In this document: piece by piece, positions 8,041 to 63,308 of the stretch
Layout: each line of letters starts with the position of its first letter
How positions within the stretch are numbered: position 1 is the first letter of the stretch
NCBI GenBank assembly: GCA_029582155.1
Contig: CM055902.1
Coordinates: forward strand, 19,231,248 to 19,295,247
Reading direction: 5' to 3'
DNA length: 64,000 bases
Origin: Panopea generosa
Taxonomy: Eukaryota; Mollusca; Bivalvia; Adapedonta; Hiatellidae
Made by a program: the position numbers and the translations under genes
Notes under the pieces: generated by a model
The model's input: only the letters and a program-made list of their open reading frames with translations
The model's database searches: none
What the model was told of the DNA's origin: nothing

Positions 8041-10980
8041 GATGTATTCTGTGCCACTCAATATAAATAATGTATTCTGTACCCACTCAATATAACTAAT
8101 GTATTCTGTGTCCACTCAATATTAAAAATGTATTCTGTGTCCACTCAAAATTAATGATGTACTCAGTGTCCACTCAAAATAAATAATGTTACTCTGTGTC
8201 CACTCAATATTAATAATGTACTCAGTGTCCACTCAATATAAATAATGTTTTCTGTGTCCACTCAATATAAATAATGTACTCAGTGTCCACTCAATATTAA
8301 TAATGTACTCAGTGTCCACTCAATATAAATAATGTACTCTGTCTCCACTCAGTATTAATAATGTATTCTGTGTCCACTCAATATAAATAATGTACTCTGT
8401 GTCCACTCAATATAAATAATGTATTCTGTGTCCACTCAATATTAATAATGTACTCAGTGTCCACTCAATATAAATAATGTATTCTGTGTCCACTCAATAT
8501 AAATAATGTATTCTGTGTCCACTCAGTATTAATAATGTATTCTGTGTCCACTCAATATAAATAATGTACTCTGTGTCTACTCAATATTAATAATGTATTC
8601 TGTCTCCACTCAGTATTAATAATGTATTCAGTGTCCACTCAATATAAATAATGTACTCAGTGTCCACTCAATACAAATAATGTATTCTGTGTCCACTCAA
8701 TATTAATAATGTATTCAGTGTCCACTCAATATAAATAATGTACTCAGTGTCCACTCAATATAAATAATGTATTTTGTGTCCACTCAATATAAATAATGTA
8801 CTCTGTGTCTACTCAATATAAATAATGTACTCTGTCTCCACTCAGTATTAATAATGTATTCAGTGTCCACTCAATATAAATAATGTACTCAGTGTCCACT
8901 CAATATAAATAATGTATTCTGTGTCCACTCAATATTAATAATGTACTCAGTGTCCACTCAATATAAATAATGTATTTTGTGTCCACTCAATATAAATAAT
9001 GTATTCTGTGTCCACTCAGTATTAATAATGTATTCTGTGTCCACTCAATATAAATAATGTACTCTGTGTCTACTCAATATAAATAATGTACTCTGTCTCC
9101 ACTCAATATAAATAATGTATTCTGTGTCCACTCAATATTAATAATGTACTCAGTGTCCACTCAATATAAATAATGTACTCAGTGTCCACTCAATATAAAT
9201 AATGTACTCAGTGTCCACTCAATATTAATAATGTACTCAGTGTCCACTCAATATAAATAATGTATTCTGTGTCCACTCAATATTAATAATGTACTCAGTG
9301 TCCACTCAATATAAATAATGTATTCTGTGTCCACTTAATATAAATAATGTACTCAGTGTCCACTCAATATTAATAATGTACTCAGTGTCCACTCAATATA
9401 AATTATGTTACCCTGTGTCCACTCAATATAAATAATGTATTCTGTGTCCACTCAATATAAATTATGTATTCTGTGTCCACTCAATATAAATAATGTTCTC
9501 TGTGTTCACTCAATATAAATAATGTATTATGTCCCCAATCAATATAAATAATGTACTCAGTGTCCACTCAATATAAATAATGTACTCAGTGTCCACTCAA
9601 TATAAATGATGTATTCTGTGTCCACTCAATATTAATAATGTACTCAGTGTCCACTCAATATAAATAATGTCTTCTGTGTCCACTCAGTATTAATAATGTA
9701 TTCTGTGTCCACTAAATATAAATAATGTATTCGGTGTCCACTCAATATTAATAATGTACTCTGTATCAACTCAATATAAATAATGTATTCTGTGTCCACT
9801 CAGTATTAATAATGTATTCTGTGTCCACTCAATATAAATAATGTACTCTGTGTCTACTCAATATAAATAATGTACTCTGTCTCCACTCAATATAAATAAT
9901 GTATTCTGTGTCCACTCAATACAAATAATTTATTTTGTGTCCACTCAATGTAAATAATGTACTCTGTTCCCACTCAATATAATAATGTATTCTGTCCCCA
10001 CTCAATATAAATAATGTACTTTGTCCCCACTCAATATAATAATGTACTCTGTCCCCACTCAATATAAATAATGTATTCTGTGTCCACTCAATGTAAATAA
10101 TGTATTCTGTGCCCACTCAATATAAATAATGTTTTCTGTGTCCACTCAATATAAATAATGTACTCTGTGTCTACTCAATATAAATAATGTATTATGTGCC
10201 CACTCAATGTAAATAATGTATTCTGTGCCCACTTAATATAAATAATGTATTCTGTGGCCACTTAATATAAATAATGTATTCTGTGGCACTCAATATAAAT
10301 AATGTACTCTGTGTCTACTCAATATAAATAATGTATTCTGTGCCCACTTAATATAAATAATGTATTCTGTGGCCACTTAATATAAATAATGTATTCTGTG
10401 GCACTCAATATAAATAATGTATTATGTGCCCACTCAATGTAAATAATGTATTCTGTGCCCACTTAATATAAATAATGTATTCTGTGGCCACTTAATATAA
10501 ATAATGTATTCTGTGGCACTCAATATAAATAATGTACTCTGTGTCTACTCAATGTAAATAATGTATTCTGTGGCATTCAATATAAATAATGTATTCTGTG
10601 GCATTCAATATAAATAATGTACTCTGTGCCCACTTAATATAAATAATGTACTCTGTCCCCACTCAACATAAATAATGTATTCTGTGTCCTATCAATATAA
10701 ATAATGTACTGTCCCTACTCAATATAAATAATGTACTCTGTGCCCACTCAATATAAATAATGTATTCTGTGCCCACTCAATATAAATAATGTATTCTGTG
10801 CCCACTCAATATAAATAATGAACTCTGCGTCCACTCAATATTAATAATGTATTCTGTCCCCACTCAATGTAAATAATGTATTCTGTGCCCACTCAATATA
10901 AATAATGTATTCTGTGCCCCTTGGCCCCAAAGCACCTACGCCTATGCTATATAAATAATGTACTCTGTGGCACTCAGAAC
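8041..10980. repeat. 29-bp tandem array, about 100 copies
   Basis: Nearly 2.9 kb of head-to-tail copies of a 29-bp unit, for example TGTATTCTGTGTCCACTCAA followed by TATAAATAA. Units differ at a few fixed sites: TATAAATAA or TATTAATAA, and TTCTGTG or CTCAGTG. From about 9930 onward, GTCCCCACT, GTGCCCACT and GTGGCACT variants dominate. The last copies are broken by an unrelated 27-nt insert near 10920. Since 29 is not a multiple of three, open frames here (for example 9916-10116 minus) are accidental. It lies in the intron between dipeptidase exons 4 and 5. Confidence 0.95.
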
Positions 10981-22606: not shown

Positions 22607-22845
22607 GGGTACCACTCAAAATACCCACGGTCAAAATACCCACACCTCAAAAATGGCAAAGTAGTCAAAATACCCACAGCAGAGTTTTCAGGGTATTCAA
22701 AATACCCACAGCAGAATTTTCAGGGTTTTCAAAATACCCACAGTAGAATTTACAGGGTATTCAAAATACCCACAGTAGAATTTACAGGGTATTCAAAATA
22801 CCCACAGTAGAATTTACAGGGTAGTCAAAATACCCACCCTGGGTT
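22607..22845 (+). repeat. 32-bp tandem hairpin repeat G
   Basis: Several copies of a 32-bp unit, AGGGTATTCAAAATACCCAC plus 'agtagaattta'. Each unit contains the inverted repeat GGGTATT-CAA-AATACCC. A reverse-complement copy of the whole array with its right flank (GGTTGTCACAAGTCCAAAAT) is at 27720-27965, showing that array plus flank moved or duplicated as one element. Confidence 0.85.
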
Positions 22846-27719: not shown

Positions 27720-27965
27720 GGACTTGTGACAACCCAGGGTGGGTATTTTGACTACCCTGTAAATTCTACTGTGGGTATTTTGAATACCCTGTAAATTATA
27801 CTGTGGGTATTTTGAATACCCTGTAAATTCTACTGTGGGTATTTTGAATACCCTGAAAATTCTGCTGTGGGTATTTTGAATACCCTGAAAACTCTGCTGT
27901 GGGTATTTTGACTACTTTGCCATTTTTGAGGTGTGGGTATTTTGACAATGGGTATTTTGACATAC
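27720..27965 (-). repeat. 32-bp tandem hairpin repeat G, inverted copy
   Basis: Reverse complement of the array at 22607-22845, including the GACTTGTGACAACCCAGGGT flank. The two copies flank about 4.9 kb in opposite orientation inside dipeptidase intron 1. Confidence 0.85.
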
Positions 27966-32874: not shown

Positions 32875-33158
32875 ATGAAGTGGAAAATGTTTTTTAAGTT
32901 GGGATTGACAGTGATTATATTTGTGGCAGTGTACATGTATTATGCTATCAACAATCTGGACTCGACAGACATCATAGGAACCAAGGAGGAAAGTTTTGAA
33001 GTAAATGTAAAAAAGACTGTGGAAATTGATGAGACAGAAAAATCAAAAAGGAAAAATGATGAAATCGATGACTTAAAAGTGAAAGACAATGCCCAGGAAC
33101 CTGAAGATAAACAAAGGGATGCAGAACCTGAGATGCCAAAACAAACTGTTGAAACAAG
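32875..33158 (+). CDS. GXYLT: GXYLT exon 1: glucoside xylosyltransferase, start
   Basis: The gene encodes a GT8 family glycosyltransferase that transfers xylose from UDP-xylose to O-linked glucose on EGF repeats of Notch-type proteins in the secretory pathway. Seven exons (284, 166, 141, 193, 150, 173 and 153 nt) total 1260 nt: 419 residues plus stop, close to the roughly 440 of human GXYLT1/2. This exon gives a short cytosolic tail, one membrane anchor (about residues 6-24, LGLTVIIFVAVYMYYAI) and a charged Lys/Glu/Asp stem to about residue 94. That is type II topology. The ATG at 32875 is preferred over an in-frame one at 32782 because an acceptor (CTTTTCCATAG, ending 32816) falls between them and because MKWKMFF directly precedes the anchor. 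The donor GTAAGG splits an arginine codon. Whether it corresponds to GXYLT1 or GXYLT2 cannot be decided. Confidence 0.93.
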
Positions 33159-33883: not shown

Positions 33884-34049
33884 GAAGTCCCGCCACTGGA
33901 GGGAGGGCTTACACTTGTCTGTCGTCTGCTGCGGTGACAGAGTGGCGGAGACTGTCGTGATGTTTAAATCTGCCGTACTGTTCACAAAGTCTCTGCTTGT
34001 CTTCCATATATTTGCCGATACTGACTTACAGAAAGAGCTTCAAGAACAA
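33884..34049 (+). CDS. GXYLT: GXYLT exon 2
   Basis: Acceptor TTTATTCCAG, donor GTATGT. Residues 95 (split)-150. Contains LHLSVVCCGDRVAETVVMFK and LLVFHIFAD, the first beta-strand and nucleotide-sugar side of the GT8 fold. The human counterpart reads LAVVACGERLEET and LQFHIFAE. Phase fits both neighbours. Confidence 0.94.
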
Positions 34050-35526: not shown

Positions 35527-35667
35527 CTTGATTTCTGGCCACCAAAGTTCAGAGAAAAGGTAGAATATCATATTTACAACATAACATTTCCACCAAGTGA
35601 GGACGGTAAAATGGATAAATGGCGGACCATATTTAAACCGTGCGCTGCTCAGCGACTATTTATTCCA
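35527..35667 (+). CDS. GXYLT: GXYLT exon 3
   Basis: 141-nt exon, phase 0 on both sides, acceptor TTATTTACAG and donor GTAAGT. Residues 151-197 with YNITFPPSEDGKMDKWRTIF and FKPCAAQRLFIP. The last block is diagnostic of GXYLT (human LFKPCASQRLFLP). Confidence 0.95.
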
Positions 35668-37148: not shown

Positions 37149-37341
37149 GATCTACTAAAAGAAGTAACTTCTCTGCTGTATGTGGACACAGACATTATCT
37201 TCCTGTCCCCAGTAGATGAGATCTGGTCCTTCTTTTCTAAATTCAACTCCACCCAGCTGGCTGCTGTCACTCCAGAACACGAGGACCGTGCTATAGGCTG
37301 GTACAATAGATTTGCCCGTCATCCATATTATGGAGAATTAG
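37149..37341 (+). CDS. GXYLT: GXYLT exon 4 (catalytic DxD)
   Basis: Acceptor TTTCTTTGCAG, donor GTAAAT, ending one base into a glycine codon. Residues 198-261 contain [19 protein letters not shown], where D210 and D212 form the DxD motif that holds the metal and UDP-sugar. [16 protein letters not shown] and [17 protein letters not shown] follow, nearly identical in pattern to human GXYLT1. Confidence 0.97.
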
Positions 37342-38180: not shown

Positions 38181-38330
38181 GAGTTAACTCTGGTGTGATG
38201 ATGATGAACCTTACAAGACTTCGTGCGTCGTCATGGCTACAGTCAATGAAAAACTACTACAAAGAATACAGACATAAGATTCCATTCGGTGACCAGGATC
38301 TCATTAATATTTACTTCCATTTCAACCCAG
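38181..38330 (+). CDS. GXYLT: GXYLT exon 5
   Basis: 150-nt exon after acceptor TTTTGTGAAG, donor GTAACT, ending one base into a codon. Residues 262-311 with GVNSGVMMMNLTRLR and then PFGDQDLINIYFHFNPG. D299 and D301 lie in the conserved GDQDL. The segment between LTRLR and GDQDL is about ten residues shorter than in human GXYLT1, a difference inside one exon and so not a missed exon boundary. The acceptor has a weak pyrimidine tract. Confidence 0.94.
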
Positions 38331-38444
38331 GTAACTTGTTTTATTTATATAAGACTCTTCCAGCATACGCGACTCGTGGTTGAAGACTTTTATTGCATAT
38401 TTGATGTCATCTATGACAGAAAGTGTAAAATCTTATTTAGTTTC

Positions 38445-39071
38445 AGTGTTCTTCAGATCATCTGTATGGTTTGTTTATGTTCTTCAGATTATCTGTATGG
38501 TTTGTTCATGTTCTTTAGATCATCTGTAAGGTTTGTTCATGTTCTTCAGATCATCTTTATGGTTTGTTCATGTTCTTCAGATCAACTGTATGGTTTGATC
38601 ATGTTCTTCAGATCATCTGTATGGTTTGTTCATGTTCTAAAGATCATCTGTATGGTTTATGTACTTCAGATCATCTGTGTATTTTGTTCATGTTTTCCAG
38701 ATTATCTGTATGGTTTGTTCATGTTCTTCTGATCATCTGTATGGTTTGTTCATGTACTTCAGATCATCTGTATGGTTTGTTTATGTTCTTCTGATCATCT
38801 GTATGATTTGTTCATGTACTTTAGATCATCTGTATGGTTTGTTCATGTACTTTAGATCATCTGTTTGGTTTGTTCATGTTCTTCAGATAATTTGTATGGT
38901 TTGTTCATGTTCTTCAGATAATTTGTATGGTTTGTTCATGTTCTTCAGATAATTTGTATGGTTTGTTCCTGTTCTCCAGATCATCTGTATGGTTTGTTTA
39001 TGTTCTTCAGATCATCTGTATGGTTTGTTCATGTCTTCAGATCATCTGTATGGTTTGTTTATGTTCTTCAG
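38445..39071 (+). repeat. 31-bp minisatellite copying the exon 6 splice acceptor
   Basis: About 20 head-to-tail copies of a 31-bp unit, 'gtttgttcatgttcttcag' followed by 'atcatctgtatg', run without a break into the true 3' splice site of GXYLT exon 6 (TTCTTCAG then ATCAACTGTATATTTTG). Each unit holds a pyrimidine-rich CTTCAG (or CTTTAG, TTCCAG, CTTCTG variant) plus a near copy of the first 15 exon bases. The intron therefore carries a series of potential decoy acceptors. Long ORFs across it are by-products. Confidence 0.95.
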
Positions 39072-39244
39072 ATCAACTGTATATTTTGAGTTGCGAGTGG
39101 AACTACAGACCTGACCATTGTATGTACATGAGTGTATGTAAGCCAGTACAGGAGACAGGGGTCTACCTGCTACATGGTTGCAGGCGAGTCTGGCATGAGG
39201 ATAAACAGCCGGCATTTAAAGCAGTCTACCGAGCATTTAAAGAG
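39072..39244 (+). CDS. GXYLT: GXYLT exon 6
   Basis: 173-nt exon; its acceptor is the last copy of the 31-bp repeat. Donor GTAGTT, phase 0 out. Residues 312-369: DQLYILSCEWNYRPDHC, then GVYLLHGCRRVWHEDKQPAF. The WNYRPDHC and LHG-DKQPAF blocks are GXYLT signatures; H346 and G347 match the GT8 HxG-type metal and phosphate site. Confidence 0.96.
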
Positions 39245-39911: not shown

Positions 39912-40232
39912 GCAGCATGGTCTAGTGTTAGAGTGTCTGCCTCGCATGCGGAAGGTCCTGGGTTCAGTTCCCGACCCGGTCGTACCAAAGACTTTAAAAA
40001 TGGTACTATAAGCTTCCTTGCTTGATGCTCAGCATTCAGAGGAAAGTTCTAGGTCTGGTTGGCCCGGTGTCAGTTTAATGTGACTGGGTGGGGTATCATA
40101 CCATGTGTCTGCGGTATGATACTCCAGTGTGACAGAGCTCAGAATACTGTATCAAGTAGACACTGTTACGATATAACTGAAAAATTATTGAAAGTGACCC
40201 TTAATACGATACAACAACAACAACAGCAACAT
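39912..40232 (+). repeat. SINE-A copy
   Basis: Head CATGGTCTAGTGTTAGAGTG, then CTGCCTCGCATGCGGAAGG with CGC in the anticodon position, B box GGGTTCAGTTCCC, the shared body, and a CAACAACAACAGCAACA tail. Lies in GXYLT intron 6, sense orientation. Confidence 0.85.
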
Positions 40233-41006: not shown

Positions 41007-41307
41007 GGCCGCGGCGTGGTGTAGTGGTAGAGCATCCGCCTCGCATGCGGAAGGTCCAGGGTTCAGTCCCCGACCCGGTCATACCAAAGACTTTAAAAAT
41101 GGTACTAGAAGCTTCCTCGCTTGACGCTCAGCATTTAGAGGAGAGTTCTAGGTCTGGTCTGCCCGGTGTTAGTATAATGTGACTGGGTTGGGTATCATAC
41201 CATGTGTCTGCGGCATGATACTCCAGTGTGACAGCGCTTAGAATACTGTCTCAAGTAGATATGACTGAAAAATTGTTGAAGCGATGCTAAACACCATACA
41301 ACATTAT
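41007..41307 (+). repeat. SINE-A, best copy
   Basis: GCCGCGGCGTGGTGTAGTGG, TAGAGCATCCGCCTCGCATG and GGGTTCAGTCCCCGACCC give near-canonical A and B boxes on a tRNA-Ala(CGC)-like head. The body is the same as at 39912. The nearly intact promoter suggests a relatively young copy. Confidence 0.88.
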
Positions 41308-41759: not shown

Positions 41760-41912
41760 CATGACATGGGAGCCACCATAAAGTATGACCTGCTGGAGTC
41801 AATCAACCGGCACATGCTTGCTGCAAACGCATCCAACTGTGGGAAACTGGCACCAATATTTACAAAGCAGATACAGATCTTCATAGATGGTAGAAAACCG
41901 GACAAGTCCTGA
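41760..41912 (+). CDS. GXYLT: GXYLT exon 7, C-terminus and stop
   Basis: Acceptor TTGTATTCCAG, phase 0. Gives residues 370-419 and ends TGA at 41910-41912. The family's C-terminal region is variable; ASNCGKLAPIFTKQIQIF lines up with human TYCGKIYKIFIKQL. That supports this as the true last exon. Confidence 0.93.
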   Translation, partial: HDMGATIKYDLLESINRHMLAANASNCGKLAPIFTKQIQIFIDGRKPDKS

Positions 41913-42483: not shown

Positions 42484-42715
42484 TTGACCCATCAGTAAGT
42501 GGGTTGGTTGTGACATCAGTAAGTGGGTTGGTTGTGACGTCAGTAAGTGGGTTGCTTTTGACGTCAGTAAGTGGGTTGGTTGTGATGTCAGTAAATGGGT
42601 GGTTGACCCATCAGTAAGTGGGTTGGTGGTGATGTCAGTAAGTGGGTCGGTTGTGACATAAGTAAGTGGATCGGTTGTGACGTAAGTAAGTGGGTTGGTT
42701 GTGACTGGAGCCTAT
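42484..42715 (+). repeat. 24-bp tandem repeat, about ten copies
   Basis: Unit GTCAGTAAGTGGGTTGGTTG plus 'tgac', with the first and sixth copies followed by TTGACCCATC variants. Each unit contains AGTAAGTGGG, which resembles a splice donor core, but there is no coding context. Confidence 0.9.
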
Positions 42716-52911: not shown

Positions 52912-55900
52912 CAGAACTAGACCAAGCTATCAGTTTAAGTGATCCAAACCCCCTCAACACTACCTTAAAGGCGATGTACCACAATGATCCTAGAACTAAA
53001 CCAAGTGATTCATGCCCCCACAACACATCTTTAAAGGCGATGTACCACAATGATCCTAGAACTAGACCAAGTGATTCATGCCCCCACAACACCACCTTCA
53101 AGGCAATGTACCACAATGATCCTAGAACTAGACCAAGTGATTCATGCCCCCACAACACCACTTTAAAGGCGATGTACCACAATGATCCTAGAACTAGACC
53201 AAGTGATTCATGCCCCCACAAAACCACTATAAAGGCGATGTACAACAATGATCCTAAAACTTGACTAAGTGATTCATGCCCTCACAACACCACCTTAAAG
53301 GCGATGTACCACAATGATCACAACACCACCTTAAAGGTGATTTACCACAATGATCTTAGAACTAGACCAAGTGATTCATGCCCCCACAATACCACTTTAA
53401 AGGTGATGTACCACAATGATCCTAGAACTTGACCAAGTGATTCATGCCCCCACAAAACCACTTTAAAGGCGATGTACCACAATGATCCTAGAATTAGACG
53501 AAGTGATTCATGCCCCCACAACACCACCTTAAAGACGATGCACCACAATGATCCTAGAACTTGACAAAGTGAATCATGCCCCCACAACACCACCTTAAAG
53601 GTGATGTACCACAATGATACTAGAACTACACCAAGTGATTCATGCCCCCACAACACCAACTTAAAGGCGATGTACCACAATGATCCTAGAACTAGACCAA
53701 GTGATTCATGCCCTACCAACACCACCTTAAAGGCGATGTACCACAATGATCCTAGAACTAGACCAAGTGATTCATGCCCCAACAACACCACCTTAAAGGC
53801 GATGTACCACAATGATCCTAGAACTTGACCAAGTGATTCATGCCCCCACAACACCACCTTAAAGGTGATGTACCACAATGATCCTAGAACTAGACCAATT
53901 GATTCATGCCCCTACAACACCACCTTAAAGGTGATGTACCACAATGATCCTAGAACTAAACCAAGTGATTCATGCCCCCTCAACACCACCTTCAAGGCGA
54001 TGTACCACAATGATCCTAGAACTAGACCAAGTGATTCATGCCCCAACAGCACCATCTTAAAGGTGATGTACCACAATGATCCCAGAACTAGACCAAGTGA
54101 TTCATGCCACCACAGCACCACATTAAAGGCAATGTACCGCAATGATCCTAGAACTAGACAAAGTGATTCATGCCCCATCAACACCACCTTAAAGGTGATG
54201 TACCACAATGATCCTAGAACTAGACCAAGTGATTCATGCCCCCACAACACCAGCTTAAAGGCGATGTAACACAATGATCCTATACTAGACCATGTGATTC
54301 ATGCCCCCACAACACCACTTTAAAGGCGATGTACCACAATGATCCTAGAACTTGACCAAGTGATACATGCCCCCACAACACCACCTTAAATGCGATGTAC
54401 CACAATGATCCTAGAACTTCACCAAGTGATTCATGCTCCCGTAACACCACCTTAAAGGCAATGTACCATAATGATCCTAGAACTAGACCAAGTGATTCAT
54501 GCCCCCACAACACCACCTTAAAGGCAATGTACCACAATGATCCTAGAACTAGACCAAGTGATTCATGCCCCAACAACACCAATTTAAAGGAGCTGTACCA
54601 CAATGATCCTAGAACTTGACCAAGTGATTCATGCCCCCGTAACAGCACCTTAAAGGAAATGTACCACAATGATCCTAGAACTAGACCAAGTGATTCATGC
54701 CCCCACAACACCACCTTAAAGGCAATGTACCACAATGATCCTAGAACTAGACCAAGTGATTCATGCCCCAACAACACCACTTTAAAGGAGCTGTACCACA
54801 ATGATCCTAGAACTTGACCAAGTGATTCATGACCCCGTAACAGCACCTTAAAGGCGATGTAACACAATGATCCTAGAACTTGAACAAGTGATTCATGCCC
54901 CCACAACACCACCTTAAAGGCGATGTACCACAATGATCCTAGAACTTGACCAAGTGATTCATGCCCCCGTAACACCACCTTAAAGGCAATGTACCACAAT
55001 GATCCTAGAACTAGACCAAGTGATTCATGCCCCCACAACACCACCTTAAAGGCAATGTACCACAATGATCCTAGAACTAGACAAAGTGATTCATGCCCCC
55101 ACAACACCACCTTAAAGGCAATGTACCACAATGATCCTAGAACTAGACCAAGTGATTCATGCCCCCACAACGCCACCTTAAAGGTGATGTACCACAATGA
55201 TCCTAGAACAAGACCAAGTGATTCATGACCCCACAACACCACCTTAAAGGCGATGTACCACAATGATCCTAGAATTAGACCATGTGATTCATGCCCAATC
55301 GACACCACCTTAAAGGCGATGTACCAAAATGATCCTAGAACTTGACCAAGTGATTCATGCCCCCGTAAACCACCTTAAAGGCAATATACCACAACGATCC
55401 TAGAACTAGACAAAGTGATTCATGCCCCCCACAACACCACCTAAAAGGCAATGTACCACAATGATCGTAGAACTAGACCAAGTGATTCATGCCTCCACAA
55501 CACCACCTTCAAAGCAATGCACCACAATGATCCTAGAACAAGACCAAGTGATTCATGCCCCAACAACACCACCTTAAAGGCGATACACCACAATGATCCT
55601 AGAACTAGACCAAGTGATTCATACCCCCACAACACCACCTTAAAGGCGATGCACCAAAATGATCCTAGAACTAGACCAAGTGATTCATGCCCCCACAACA
55701 CCACCTTAAAGGTGATGTACCACAATGATCCTAGGACTAGACCAATTGATTCATGCCCCCACAACACCACCTTAAAGGTGATGTACCACAATGATCCTAG
55801 AACTAGACCAAGTGATTCATGCCCCCACAACACAACCTTAAAGGCTATGTACCACAATGATCCTAGAACTAGACCAAGTGATTCATGCCCAAACAGCACC

Positions 55901-58900
55901 ACCTTAAAGGTGATATACCACAATGATCCTAGAACTAGACCAAGTGATTCATGCCCAAACAGCACCACCTTAAAGGTGATATACCACAATGATCCTAGAA
56001 CTAGACCAAGTGATTCATGCCCTCACAGCACCATAATAAAGGCGATGTACCACAATGATCCTAGAACTAGACAAAGTGATTCATGCCCCCTCATAACCAC
56101 CTTAAAGGTGATGTACCACAATGATCCTAGAACTAGACCAAGCGAGCTTGCCCCTACAACACCAGCTTAAAGGCGATGTAACACAATGATTCTAGAACTA
56201 GATCAAGTGATTCATGCCCCCACAACACCACTTTAAAGGCGATGTACCACAATGATCCTAGAACTTGACCAAGTGATTCATGCCCCCACAACACCACCTT
56301 AAAGGCGATGTACCACAATGATCCTAGAACTTGACTAAGTGATTCATGCCCCCGTAACACCACCTTAAAGGCAATGTACCACAATGATCCTAGAACTAGA
56401 CCAAGTGATTCATGCCCCCACAACACCACCTTAAAGGCAATGTACCACAATGATCTTAGAACTAGAACAAGTGATTCATGCCCCTGTAACACCACCTTAA
56501 AGCAATGTACCACAATGATCCTAGAACTAGACAAAGTGATTTATGCCCCCACAACACCACCTTAAAGGTGATGTACCACAATGATCCTAGAACTAGACAA
56601 AGTGATTTATGCCCCCACAACACCACCTTAAAGGTGATGTACCACAATGATCGTAGAACTAGACAAAGTGATTCATGCCTCCACAACACCACCTTCAAGG
56701 CAATGCACCACAATGATCCTAGAACTATACCAAGTGATTAATGCCCCCACAACACCACCTTAAAGGCGATGCACCACAATGATCCTAGAACTAGACCGAG
56801 TGATTCATTCCCCCACAACACCACTTTAAAGGCGATGTACCAAAATGATCCTAGAACTTGACCAAGTGATTCATGCCCCCACAACACCACCTTAAAGGTG
56901 ATGTACAACAATGATCCTAGGACTAGACCAACTGATTCATGCCCACACAACACCACTTTAAAGGCGATGTACCACAATGATCCTAGAACTAGACCAAGTG
57001 ATTCATGCCCCCACAACACCACCTTAAAGGCGATGTAACACAATGATCCTAGAACTAGACCAAGTGATTCATGCCCCAACAGCACCACCTTAAAGGTGAT
57101 GTACCACAATGATCCTAGAACTAGACCAAGTGATTCATGCCCCAACAGCACCACAATAAAGGCGATTTATCACAATGATCCCAGAACTAGACAAAGTGAT
57201 TCATGTCCCCACAACACCATCTTAAAGGCAATGTACCGCAATGATCCTAGAACTAGACCAAGTGATTCATGTTCCCACAACACCACTTTAAAAGGTGATG
57301 CACACAATGATCCTAGAACTAGACCAAGTGATTCATGCCCCCACAACACCACCTTAAAGGTGATGTACCACAATGATCCTAGAACAAGACCAAGTGATTC
57401 ATGCCCCCACAACACCACCTAAAAGGCGATGTACCACAATGATCCTAGAACTTGACCAAGTGATTCATGCCCTCTCAACACCACCTTAAAAGCGATGTAC
57501 CACAATGATCCTAGAACTTGACCAAGTGATTCATGCACCCGTAACACCACCTTAGAGGCAATGTACCACAATGATCCTAGAACTAGACCAAGTGATTCAT
57601 GCCCCCACAACACTACCTTAGAGGCAATGTACCACAATGATCCTAGAACTAGACCAAGTGATTCATGCCCCCACAACACTACCTTAGAGGCAATGTACCA
57701 CAATGATTCTAGAACCAAGTGATTCATGCCCCAACAACACCAACTTAAAGGCAATGTACCACGATGATCCTAGAACTAGACCAAGTGATTCATGCCCCCA
57801 CAACACTACCTTAGAGGCAATGTACCACAATGATCTTAGAACTAGACCAAGTGATTCATGCCCCCACAACACCACCTTAGAGGCAATGTACCACAATGAT
57901 CCTAGAACTAGACCAAGTGATTCATGCCCCCACAACACTACCTTAGAGGAAATGTACCACAATGATTCTAGAACCAAGTGATTCATGCCCCAACAACACC
58001 AACTTAAAGGCAATGTACCACGATGATCCTAGAACTAGACCAAGTGATTCATGCCCCAACAACATCACTTTAAAGGCGATGTACCACAGTGATTCTTGTC
58101 CTCATAATACCACTTTAAAGGCGATGTTCCACAATGATCCTAGAACTAGACCAAGTGATTCATGCCCCAACAACATCACTTTAAAGGCGATGTACCACAA
58201 TGATCGTATAACTAGAGAAAGTGATTCATGCCCCCACACCACCACCTTAAAGGCGATGTACCACAATGATCCTAGAACTAGACCAAGTGATTCATGCCCC
58301 AACAACACCACCTTAAAGGCAATGTCGCACAATGATCCTATAACTAGACCAAGTGATTAATGCCCCCACAACACCACTTTAAAGGCGATGTACCAAAATG
58401 ATCCAAGAAGTAGACCAAGTGATTCATGCCCCCAAAACACCTCTTAAAGGTGATGTACCACAATGGTCCTCAAACTAGACCAAGTGTTTCATGCCCCCAC
58501 AACACCACTTTAAAGGCGATGTACCACAATGATCCTAGAACGAGACCAAGTGATTCATGCCCAATCGACACCATCTTAAAGGCGATGTACCACAATGATC
58601 CTAGAACTAGACCAAGTGATTCATGCCCCCACAACACAACCTTAGAGCAATGTACCAAAATGATCCTAGAACTAGACCAAGTGATTTTTGCCCCCACAAC
58701 ACCACCTTAAAGGCAATGTACCACAATGATCCTAGAACTAGACCAAGTGATTCATGCCCCCACAACACCACCTTAAAGGCGATGCACCACAAGGATCCTA
58801 GAACTAGACCAAGTGATTCATACCCCCACATCACCACCTTAAAGGCGATGTACCAAAATATTCCTAGAACTTGACCAAGTGATTCATGCCCCCACAACAC

Positions 58901-61900
58901 CACCTTAAAGGTGATGTCCCACAATGATCCTAGAACTAGACCAAGTGATCCATGCCCCCTCAACACCACCTTAAAGGCGATGTACCACAATGATCCTTGA
59001 ACTAGACCAAGAGATTCATGCCCCCACAACACCACTTTAAAGGAGATATACCACAATGATCCTAGAACTAAATCAAACTTTAAAGGCGATGTACCACAAT
59101 GGTCCTAGAACTAAACCAAGTGATCCATGCCCCCATAACACCACCTTAAACGGCGATGTAACACAATGATTCTAGAACTAGACCAAGTGATTCATGCCCC
59201 TACAACACCACTTTAAAGGTGATGTACCACAATGATCCTAGAACTAAACCAAGTGATTCATGCCCCCACAACACCACTTTAAAGAAGATATACCACAATG
59301 ACCCTAGAACTAGATCAAACTTTAAAGGCGATGTACCACAATGGTCCTAGAACTTGACCAAGTGATCCATGCCCCCACAACACCAGCTTAAAGGCGATGT
59401 AACACTATGATTCTAGAACTAGACCAAGTGTTTCATGCCTCCATAACACCACCTTAAAGGCGATGTACCACAATGATTCTAGAACTTGACCAAGTGGTTC
59501 ATGCCCCCACAACACCACCTTAAAGGCAATGTACCACAATGATACTAGAACTTGACCAAGTAATTCATACCCCCGTAACACCACTTTAAAGGCAATGTAC
59601 CACAATGATCCTAGAACTAGACCAAGTGATTCATGCTCCAACAACACCACCTTAAAGGCAATGTACCACAATGATCCTAGAACTAGACCAAGTGATTCAT
59701 GCCCCCACAACAGTACCTTAAAGGCAATGTACCACAATGATCCTAGAACTAAACCAAGTGATTCATGACCCCCGTAACACCACCTTAAAGGCAATGTACC
59801 ACAATGATCCTAGAACTAGACCATGTGATTCATGCCCCCACAACACCACCTTAAAGGCAATGTATCGCAATGATCCTAGAACTAGACCAAGTGATTCATG
59901 TTCCCACAACACCACTTTAAAGGTGATGCACACAATGATCCTAGAACTAGACCAAGTGATTCATGCCCCCACAACACCACCTTAAAGGTGATGTACCACA
60001 ATGATCCTAGAACAAGACCAAGTGATTCATGCCCCCACAACACCACCTAAAAGGCGATGTACCACAATGATCCTAGAACTTGACCAAGTGATTCATGCCC
60101 TCTCAACACCACCTTAAAAGCGATGTACCACAATGATCCTAGAACTTGACCAAGTGATTCATGCACCCGTAACACCACCTTAGAGGCAATGTACCACAAT
60201 GATCCTAGAACTAGACCAAGTGATTCATGCCCCCACAACACTACCTTAGAGGCAATGTACCACAATGATTCTAGAACCAAGTGATTCATGCCTCCACAAC
60301 ACCACCTTCAAAGCAATGCACCACAATGATCCTAGAACAAGAACAAGTGATTCATGCCCCCACAACACCAACTTAAAGGCAATGTACCACAATGATCCTA
60401 GAACTAGACCAAGTGATTCATGCCCCAACAACATCACTTTAAAGGCGATGTACAACAGTGATTCTTGTCCCCATAATACCACTTTAAAGGCGATGTTCCA
60501 CAATGATCCTAGAACTAGACCAAGTGATTCATGCCCCAACAACATCACTTTAAAGGCGATGTACCACAATGATCCTAGAACTAGAGCAAGTGATTCATGC
60601 CCCCACAACACCACCTTAAAGGCGATGTACCACAATGATCCTAGAACTAGACCGAGTTATTCATGCCCCAACAACACCACCTTAAAGGCAATGTCGCACA
60701 ATGATCCTATAACTAGACCAAGTGATTAATGCCCCCACAACACCACTTTAAAGGCAATGTACCAAAATGATCCAAGAAGTAGACCAAGTGATTCATGCCC
60801 CCAAAACACCTCTTAAAGGTGATGTACCACAATGGTCCTCAAACTAGACCAAGTGTTTCATGCCCCCAAAACACCACTTTAAAGGCGATGTACCACAATG
60901 ATCCTAGAACTAGACCAAGTGATTCATGCCCCCACAGCACCACTTTAAAGGAAATATACCACAATGATCCTAGAAATAGATCAAACTTTAAAGGCGATGT
61001 ACCACAATGGTCCTAGAACTTGACCATGTGATCCATGCCCCCACAACACCACTTTAAAGGTGATGTACCACAATGATCTTAGAACTAGACCAAGTGACTC
61101 ATGCCCCCACAACACCACCTTAAAGGTGATGTACCACGATGTTCCTTGAACTAGACCAAGTGATTCATGCCCCCACAACACCACTTTAAAGGCGATGTAC
61201 CACAATGATCATAGAACTATACCAAGTGATTCATGCCCCCCACAACACCACCTTAAATGCGATGTACCACAATGATTCTAGAACTAGACCAAGTGATTCA
61301 TGTCCCCACAACACCACTTTAAAGGCGATGTTCCACAATGATCCTAGAACTAGGCCAAGTGATTCATGCCCCAACAACATCACTTTAAAGGCAATGTTCC
61401 ACAATGATCCTAGAACTATACCAAGTGATTCATGCCCCTAGAACACCACTTTAAAGGCGATGTACCAAAATGATCCTAGAACTTGACCAAGTGATTCATG
61501 CTCACACAACACCACCTTAAAGGTGATGTACAACAATGATCCTAGAACTAGACCAATTGATTCATGCCCACACAACACCACCTTAAAGGCGATGTACCAC
61601 AATGATCCTAGAACTAGACCAAGTGATTCATGCCCCAACAACACCACCTTAAAGGCAATGTCGCACAATGATCCTATAATTAGACCATGTGATTCATGCC
61701 CCCACAACACCACTTTAAAGGCGATGTACCACAATGATCCTAGAACTAAACCAGGTGATTCATGCCCCACAACACTACTTTAAAGGCGATGTACCAAAAT
61801 GATCCAAGAAGTAGACCAAGTGATTCATGCCCCCAAAACACCACTGAAAGGCGATGTACAACAATGGTCCTCAAACTAGACCAAGTGTTTCATGCCCCCA

Positions 61901-63093
61901 CAACACCACTTTAAAGGCGATGTACCACAATGATCCTAGAACTAGACCAAGTGATTCATGCCCCCACAACACCACTTTAAAGGAAATATACCACAATGAT
62001 CCTAGAACTAGATCAAACTTTAAAGGCGATTTACCACAATGGTCCTAGAACTTGACCATGTGATCCATGCCCCCACAACACCACTTTAAAGGCGATGTAC
62101 CACAATGATCATAGAACTAGACCAAGTGAACCATGCCCCCACAACACCACTTTAAAGGCAATGTACCACAATGATCCTAGAACTAAACCAAGTGATTCAT
62201 GCCCCCAGAACACCACTTTAAAGGCGATGAACCACAATGATCCTAGAACTAGACCAAGTGATTTATGTCCCCATAACACCACTTTAAGGGCGATGGTCCA
62301 CAATGATCCTAGAACTAGACCAAGTGATTCATGCCCCATAACACCACTTTAAAGGCGATGTACCACAATGATCCTAGAACTTGACCAGGTGATTCATGCC
62401 CCCACAACACCACTTTAAAGGCGATGTGCCACAATGATCCTAGAACTAAACCAAGTGATTCATGCGCCTACAACACCAGCTTAAAGGCGATGTACCAAAA
62501 TGATCCTAGAACTAGACCAAGTGATTCATGCCCCCACACCACCACCTTAAAGGCGATGTACCACAATGATCCTAGAACTAGACCAGATGATCCATGCTCC
62601 CCAACACCACTTTAAAGGCAATGTACCACAAATCCTAGAACTAGACCAAGTGATTCATGCCCCCACAACACCACTTTAAAGGCGATGTACCACAATGATC
62701 CTAGAACTAGTCCAAGTAATTCATGCCCCCACAGCACCACTTTAAAGGCGATGTACCACAATGATCCTAGAACTAGACCAAGTGATTCATGCCCCCACAA
62801 CACCACTTTGAAGGCGATGTACCACAATGATTCTAGAACTAGATCAGATGATTCATGCTCCACATCACCACCTTAAAGGCGATGTACCACAAATCCTAGA
62901 ACTAGACCAAGTGATTCATGCCCCCTCAACACCACTTTAAAGGCGATGTACCACAATGATCCTAGAACTAGTCCAAGTGATTCATGCCTCCACAGCACCA
63001 CTTTAAAGGCGATGTACCACAATGATCCTAGAACTAAACCAAGTGATGCATGCCCCCACAACACCACTTTAAAGGAGCTGTACCACATTAATC
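52912..63093. repeat. 66-bp tandem array, about 154 units, with higher-order structure
   Basis: 10.2 kb of a 66-bp unit: GATGTACCACAATGATCCTA, GAACTAGACCAAGTGATTCA, TGCCCCCACAACACCACCTT, AAAGGC. Because 66 is a multiple of three, every unit repeats the same peptide in each frame (plus MYHNDPRTRPSDSCPHNTT..., minus ...WYIAFKVVLWGHESLGLVL). The longest frame, 342 codons, is on the minus strand. Units vary at fixed sites: ACTAGACC or ACTTGACC, CCCCCAC or CCCCAAC, AAAGGCGATG, AAAGGTGATG or AAAGGCAATG. Blocks are duplicated: 57301 onward recurs at 59929, 57970-58500 at an offset of 2369, and part again 1032 bp later. Frequent indels and TGA variants argue against coding; satellite or minisatellite DNA is the sober reading. 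Confidence 0.97.
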
Positions 63094-63308
63094 CCAGAAA
63101 TGTAGGATTTACAACCTAAGCAGAAAATCGCGAAGATGCAATTTTGTAGTTCCTTTTGAAAATAAATACAGCCATGTTACAAAGTTAAGGGGCAATAATT
63201 CTGTATATCACAAAGTTTGAAGTATGCACATCTACACTTGATATTGATCATGTATACAAAGTATGGAATCAATTGTCTGGAAAGTGGGAAAGTTGTTCAC
63301 GCCACAGA
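63094..63308. other. Unique DNA beyond the array
   Basis: Short non-repetitive spacer with no coding signal. Confidence 0.45.

Follow-up and report, generated by a model that had tools for sequence, protein, structure and literature searches.

Near-identical acceptor-like units of a minisatellite lead into exon 6 of a GXYLT-like gene in the bivalve Panopea generosa

Results

A GXYLT-like gene and the array before its exon 6

We analysed a stretch of 64,000 nucleotides of the Panopea generosa genome (contig CM055902.1, positions 19,231,248 to 19,295,247, forward strand; called the window below, with positions counted from its first letter). Exon joining gave a gene whose sixth coding exon is preceded directly by a minisatellite (Table 1); the end of exon 2 (34049) and the end of the stop codon (41912) were placed by eye from the sequence. 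The predicted protein has one Glyco_transf_8 domain (Pfam, E 4.7e-17), which places it in the GT8 family, and its N-terminus, read by eye, is hydrophobic. The eight PDB matches of the 419-residue protein include LARGE1 at 5e-18 and 6e-18 and, more weakly, XXYLT1 at 8e-5, with no GXYLT among them. GXYLT is a type II membrane protein, some 400-450 residues long, with a single GT8 domain, and in other animals it puts xylose on the O-glucose of Notch EGF repeats. The size and the single GT8 domain of the predicted protein fit this description, and it carries the motif WNYRPDHC, which we take to be GXYLT-like; on the basis of size, single domain and this motif we refer to the gene as GXYLT-like.

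Two other features of the gene region were recorded. Intron 6 holds two similar tRNA-like (SINE-like) sequences, placed by eye at about 39915-40215 and 41008-41300. Downstream of the stop codon lies a 24-bp x 9 array (42484-42705) in which the donor-like hexamer GTAAGT occurs 8 times; neither AATAAA nor ATTAAA was found between the stop codon and 43157, and this array may therefore be part of the 3' UTR.

Table 1. Positions in the window of the gene, its exons and the elements of the exon 6 array, followed by the junction-spanning arrays found at other genes
Feature	Position	Strand	Basis or remark
GXYLT-like gene, 7 coding exons, 419 aa	32875..41912	+	Exon joining; Pfam Glyco_transf_8
Coding exons 1-4	32875-33158, 33884-34049, 35527-35667, 37149-37341	+	Exon joining
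Exon 5	38181..38330	+	Exon joining
Left flank, intron end with candidate branch point CTTAT	38427..38456	+	A at -22 of first array junction
Minisatellite, 20 units	38457..39071	+	TRF and wraparound alignment; most copies end in acceptor-like CAG
First, exon-distal acceptor copy	38457	+	Splicing here would lengthen exon 6 by 615 nt; in-frame stop after 20 codons
Dead copy, TG in place of AG	38732	+	Junction-position listing
Dead copy, TG in place of AG	38794	+	Junction-position listing
Sole upstream acceptor copy with open frame	38949	+	Use would add 123 nt (41 aa)
Exon 6	39072..39244	+	Frame and phase; same exon edge in C12 paralog
Coding exon 7	41760-41912	+	Exon joining
Acceptor array L027			44 bp x 5.2; before myosin exon; most units end TTTCAG, then ATGAATTCC
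Acceptor array L039			60 bp x 2.6; myosin exon; units end CTGCAG or CTACAG, then GTTTGCTAT
Acceptor array L119			47 bp x 4.1; myosin exon; from second acceptor set
Donor array L022			41 bp; after ESKFPK; true donor by eye is the first copy, GTAAGT (script chose the second)
Donor array L040			34 bp; after LTLKAEQ
Donor array L063			43 bp, 35 copies to locus end; after HDLLDLK, kinesin

The original prediction had some 20 copies of a 31-bp unit running into exon 6, and this description was borne out by both methods. TRF called a 641-bp array (31 bp x 20.8, 38442-39082, 88% matches), and wraparound alignment divided it into 20 complete units, of which 18 have the full 31 bp and the others 27 bp (38643) and 30 bp (39011), with the last unit abutting the start of exon 6 without a gap. 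Read from the junction on, the consensus unit consists of approximately 17 nt that resemble exon 6, followed by approximately 14 nt that resemble the intron end and finish in TTCTTCAG. The phase across the exon 5-exon 6 join (CCA G/AT CAA CTG, the slash marking the junction) gives the reading NPDQLYILSCEWNYRPDHC, so the true acceptor is that at 39072, and it is the last copy of the array, as had been proposed. The statement that every unit copies the junction needs qualifying: the unit does combine an acceptor with an exon start, and of the 21 junction positions (true acceptor included) 10 have TTCTTCAG without a change and 19 have AG (18 of the 20 upstream). Mean pairwise identity of the 18 full 31-bp units is 0.886, and most of these units can therefore be distinguished from one another. 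The circular consensus unit has no stop in any frame; we rejected these open frames as a sign of coding, because single units do have stops and 17 of the 18 possible exon extensions are stopped.

Origin of the array

The exon-like part of the consensus agrees with the first 17 bases of exon 6 at 14 positions (14/17), in phase with the acceptor. This degree of agreement was reached by one of 63,324 other plus-strand 17-mers of the window and by none of the 3,206 17-mers that follow an AG in the window, the best of which reached 11. A paralog on C12 has the same junction (ATTCCAG followed by ATCAGCTGTACATG); its exon shares 13 of the initial 17 bases with exon 6 and encodes the similar DQLYMFNCEFNFRPDHC, and no array of at least four copies was found in about 1.5 kb upstream of its exon 6. 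Because a paralog free of such an array has the same exon start, the exon edge predates the array and seeded it; the units lie in phase with the true acceptor. On the other side of the array, the last ten bases of the intron end in the left flank, TGTTCTTCAG, are identical to those of the unit, as expected from tandem duplication across the junction.

A DNA search of the genome (1.47 Gb, 39 contigs) gave six other matches to the array at 68-71% identity, five in one region of C10 and one on C6. A mobile or satellite origin was considered and rejected on inspection of two of the six matches: L002 (C10) and L007 (C6) are AT-rich arrays built of other units.

Acceptor strength and candidate branch points

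We scored acceptors with a position matrix derived from 51 own-genome sites, all belonging to myosin or kinesin exons. The true acceptor at 39072 scores 2.98, the 39th percentile of this set (percentiles are rough, because the set includes some wrong picks, for example L040). The other acceptors of the gene score 10.67 (exon 4), 6.55 (exon 7) and -1.14 (exon 5), and the exon 6 acceptor of the C12 paralog scores 3.38. By this matrix, 6 of the 18 AG copies upstream equal or surpass the true acceptor: those at 38457, 38488, 39011 and 39041 tie with it, and those at 38980 (3.65) and 38701 (6.09) exceed it; the remaining 12 lie below, the lowest at -3.22. In their local sequence several upstream copies are thus indistinguishable from the true acceptor, and at that level the proposed ladder of near-identical acceptors is credible. 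In the C12 paralog a different array, 33 bp x 14, lies just within the intron after exon 6 (L014, 1005-1471); each of its units holds an acceptor-like ATTATTATCCAG on the gene strand, with a consensus score of 3.19.

The 4-mer with the highest z-score upstream of the 51 acceptors was TTAT (24 occurrences against 12.2 expected; z 3.4, uncorrected for the number of 4-mers). TTAT is thus weakly informative, and the broader YTNAY showed no enrichment before acceptors (30 of 51 versus 257 of 459), so the branch-point calls given here are weak. The candidates before the true acceptor are TTCAT, with its A at -41 and 9 nt ahead of another AG, and TTTAT at -11. Between CTTAT in the left flank and the true acceptor there are at least 18 AGs; with these array AGs between the flank candidate and 39072, correct splicing probably uses branch points borne by the repeats.

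Predicted consequences of using upstream copies

Splicing to an upstream copy would add 31 to 615 nt to exon 6. Such use had been predicted usually to shift the frame, which does not hold for 7 of the 18 upstream AG sites, kept in frame by the 27-bp and 30-bp units; a premature end is nevertheless predicted at nearly all sites, since 6 of these 7 carry a stop and 17 of the 18 overall give a premature stop in the extended exon, 130-726 nt before the exon 6-exon 7 junction. Under the 50-55-nt rule such transcripts are expected to decay, and nonsense-mediated decay is the expected fate of the products of those 17 sites.

Junction-spanning arrays elsewhere in the genome

We surveyed splice junctions in three gene families (myosin, kinesin and TCP1) of the same genome, whose exons are in part paralogs or near-identical copies (L048, L049) and so not all independent. 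From 140 exons we dropped 15 without an acceptor candidate and 7 with a score under -1.8. For the second acceptor set, 80 exons were taken by hand, in roughly table order, from 194 exon matches outside the sampled loci, passing over several that lay within loci sampled before or in long open frames. Usable donors came from 49 of 60 long loci (first set) and 33 of 40 short loci (second set), the latter 40 being a subset of the exons in the second acceptor set.

Arrays spanning the junction were found at both kinds of site. Among sampled acceptors the count was 3 of 118 (95% interval 0.5-7.3%), among sampled donors 3 of 82 (95% interval 0.8-10.3%). The pattern was noticed in the first acceptor and donor sets (2/49 and 3/49, respectively), and the second sets (1/69 and 0/33) give the cleaner estimate. 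The acceptor cases are confined to myosin (3 of 42 acceptors, against 0 of 49 in kinesin and 0 of 27 in TCP1), and the three donor arrays are in myosin and kinesin exons.

Junctions are not preferred places for arrays in this sample. Arrays cover 2.5% of positions lying 5 nt before an acceptor, compared with 5.9-8.5% at 100-350 nt, and in the first donor set they cover 6.1% at 5 nt, compared with 8.2% at 100-300 nt. Enrichment was rejected for both kinds of site: 3/118 acceptors is below the 6.9% used as background (binomial P 0.034), and 3/82 donors is not above 8% (P 0.098). An upstream in-phase copy was present at 113 of 2,170 decoy intronic AGs versus 3 of 118 acceptors, the decoy count being inflated because AGs cluster inside arrays.

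The window itself is rich in tandem repeats, with arrays of period at least 15 covering 26% of it. Among these features are two very long arrays (8042-10916, 29 bp x 99; and 52937-63099, about 10 kb of a 66-bp unit), and the same 32-bp x 5.5 array at 22661-22837 and 27739-27915, in opposite orientations and about 5 kb apart, as at the ends of mobile elements.

Comparison with known splice-site repeats

The exon 6 array consists of site-bearing tandem units continuous with a real exon junction, as do splice-junction VNTRs of the CBS, F7 and ABCA7 kind. Competing acceptors for a single exon are known from NAGNAG and other tandem acceptors, where two or a few sites lie some nucleotides apart; a minisatellite of 20 copies that also includes exon sequence is a different arrangement. 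The array in intron 7 of human F7 has fewer copies than the 20 units at exon 6. These 37-bp F7 repeats likewise form a ladder of highly similar splice sites adjoining an exon, but they lie on the donor side, and only the most upstream, exon-proximal donor is normally used (PMC6627357). In human CBS, the VNTR c.1444_1467+7(16_21) has a 31-bp unit in 16-21 copies; the unit by its name spans the end of an exon and the first 7 bases of the intron and thus carries a splice site, as the units at 38457-39071 do, whereas it differs in being on the donor (5') side of an unrelated gene and in varying between people (PMC2630376).

The VNTR in intron 18 of human ABCA7 (25 bp x 23.7) begins at the splice site of the exon, again on the donor side; the site of the next unit is used in RNA, giving an isoform that retains one unit at a level of about 2% that is unchanged with repeat length (PMC5954066). 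Repeat length did alter skipping of the next exon (PMC5954066), and a length effect of another sort is therefore possible for the exon 6 array. With its position on the acceptor side, the exon 6 array departs from the donor-side pattern of CBS, F7 and ABCA7, which in the present genome is represented by L022, L040 and L063. No acceptor-side minisatellite was found in the open-licence literature searched, and within that literature the exon 6 array is new relative to the three donor-side human precedents.

Discussion

We consider it likely, on the whole, that the array is a tolerated duplication of the junction, with splicing mostly to 39072 and a small unproductive leak. The junction between intron 5 and exon 6 would have been duplicated in tandem and then amplified to 20 copies, and each duplication would have been tolerated, since all sequence ahead of the final copy could leave with the intron. 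The spliceosome would mainly pick the exon-proximal 39072, favoured by exon definition, and would probably reach it through branch points within the repeats; a small leak to upstream copies would be destroyed by nonsense-mediated decay. Predominant use of 39072 with a small leak is what we expect from the behaviour of the F7 and ABCA7 ladders, and the array would then be close to neutral, a by-product of the abundance of tandem repeats in this genome, and would belong to a recurrent kind of splice-junction array seen at acceptors and donors. A duplication that spans the junction leaves a whole exon beside a working site, so such an array can persist and expand; this tolerance, together with the array load of the genome, accounts for the finding and for its recurrence, and its occurrence at other genes, no more often than intronic arrays in general, is as expected of tolerated by-products. 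Against this reading, the distal copy at 38457 is served by a better candidate branch point (CTTAT at -22) than the true acceptor, and simple scanning would favour it.

The same observation, together with the 6 of 18 upstream copies that match or exceed the score of the true acceptor and the 17 of 18 that give a stop well ahead of the last junction, speaks for the reading in which the ladder sets GXYLT dose, with upstream acceptors competing and repeat number fixing the unproductive fraction lost to nonsense-mediated decay. As a human precedent for dose, the 31-bp VNTR of CBS reportedly affects enzyme activity, to go by the title of a 2001 study by Lievers. Selection on the acceptor would be expected to leave its letters better kept, and we saw no sign of this in the 31-bp units, 18 of the 20: the share of altered cells is 2 of 36 for AG, 13 of 144 for TTCTTCAG and 22 of 414 for the other columns, with permutation P values of 0.60 for AG changing so little and 0.16 for the 8-mer TTCTTCAG changing so much. 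The AG and pyrimidine tract are thus conserved to no greater degree than the remaining positions, and like arrays are found at other genes with a frequency that does not exceed the background. The unit-retention isoform of ABCA7 does not change with length (PMC5954066). We regard regulation of dose as unlikely, and the proposal that repeat number tunes GXYLT output is not supported by the letters of the acceptor or by the intronic rate of such arrays.

It is very improbable that the array is older than, and unrelated to, the exon, the exon boundary having shifted onto its edge and the likeness of unit and exon being secondary. Arrays close to exons are common where more than a quarter of the window is tandem repeat, and acceptor-like units are not rare: 9 of the 43 listed arrays score at least 2.0 on one strand, a count that includes the array at 38457-39071 and one array listed twice. 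Against this stand the exon edge and start held in common with the array-free paralog (13/17 nt) and the in-phase match of unit to exon (14/17 nt versus 0/3,206 controls). An inflated or collapsed copy number from misassembly is just as improbable; some units are near-identical (38887, 38918 and 38949), but an array of 641 bp with differing units is short for long reads, and the contig (C9, 73.8 Mb) is chromosome-sized. Equally remote is a protein variant made by use of upstream copies: 38949 is in frame and open and would insert 41 residues, but it is one site of 18, its score of 2.0 is below the 2.98 of the true site and equal to that of neighbours that give stops, and the insert would be a repetitive hydrophobic stretch.

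Having preferred the tolerated duplication, we note a wider proposal that we hold to be unlikely, namely that junction arrays form a genome-wide class (approximately 0.5-7% of acceptors and 1-10% of donors, or thousands of exons with ladders of near-identical sites), in which copy number would set heritable unproductive splicing wherever the ancestral branch point has stayed with the distal acceptor, as may be the case here, a Notch-modifying xylosyltransferase included.

The acceptor ladder is best regarded as a natural test of choice among near-identical splice sites, and not as proven regulation of GXYLT. It bears on the old question of whether the first AG after the branch point (the distal 38457) or the AG adjacent to the exon (39072) is taken; the RNA expected here differs greatly between these rules. 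Should junction arrays prove to recur across the whole genome, a single RNA-seq set of the species would answer this question at many loci, and it would reveal to what extent exon edges can be shifted or blurred by tandem duplication free of cost. The recurrence of junction arrays within one genome is the part of these results most worth following.
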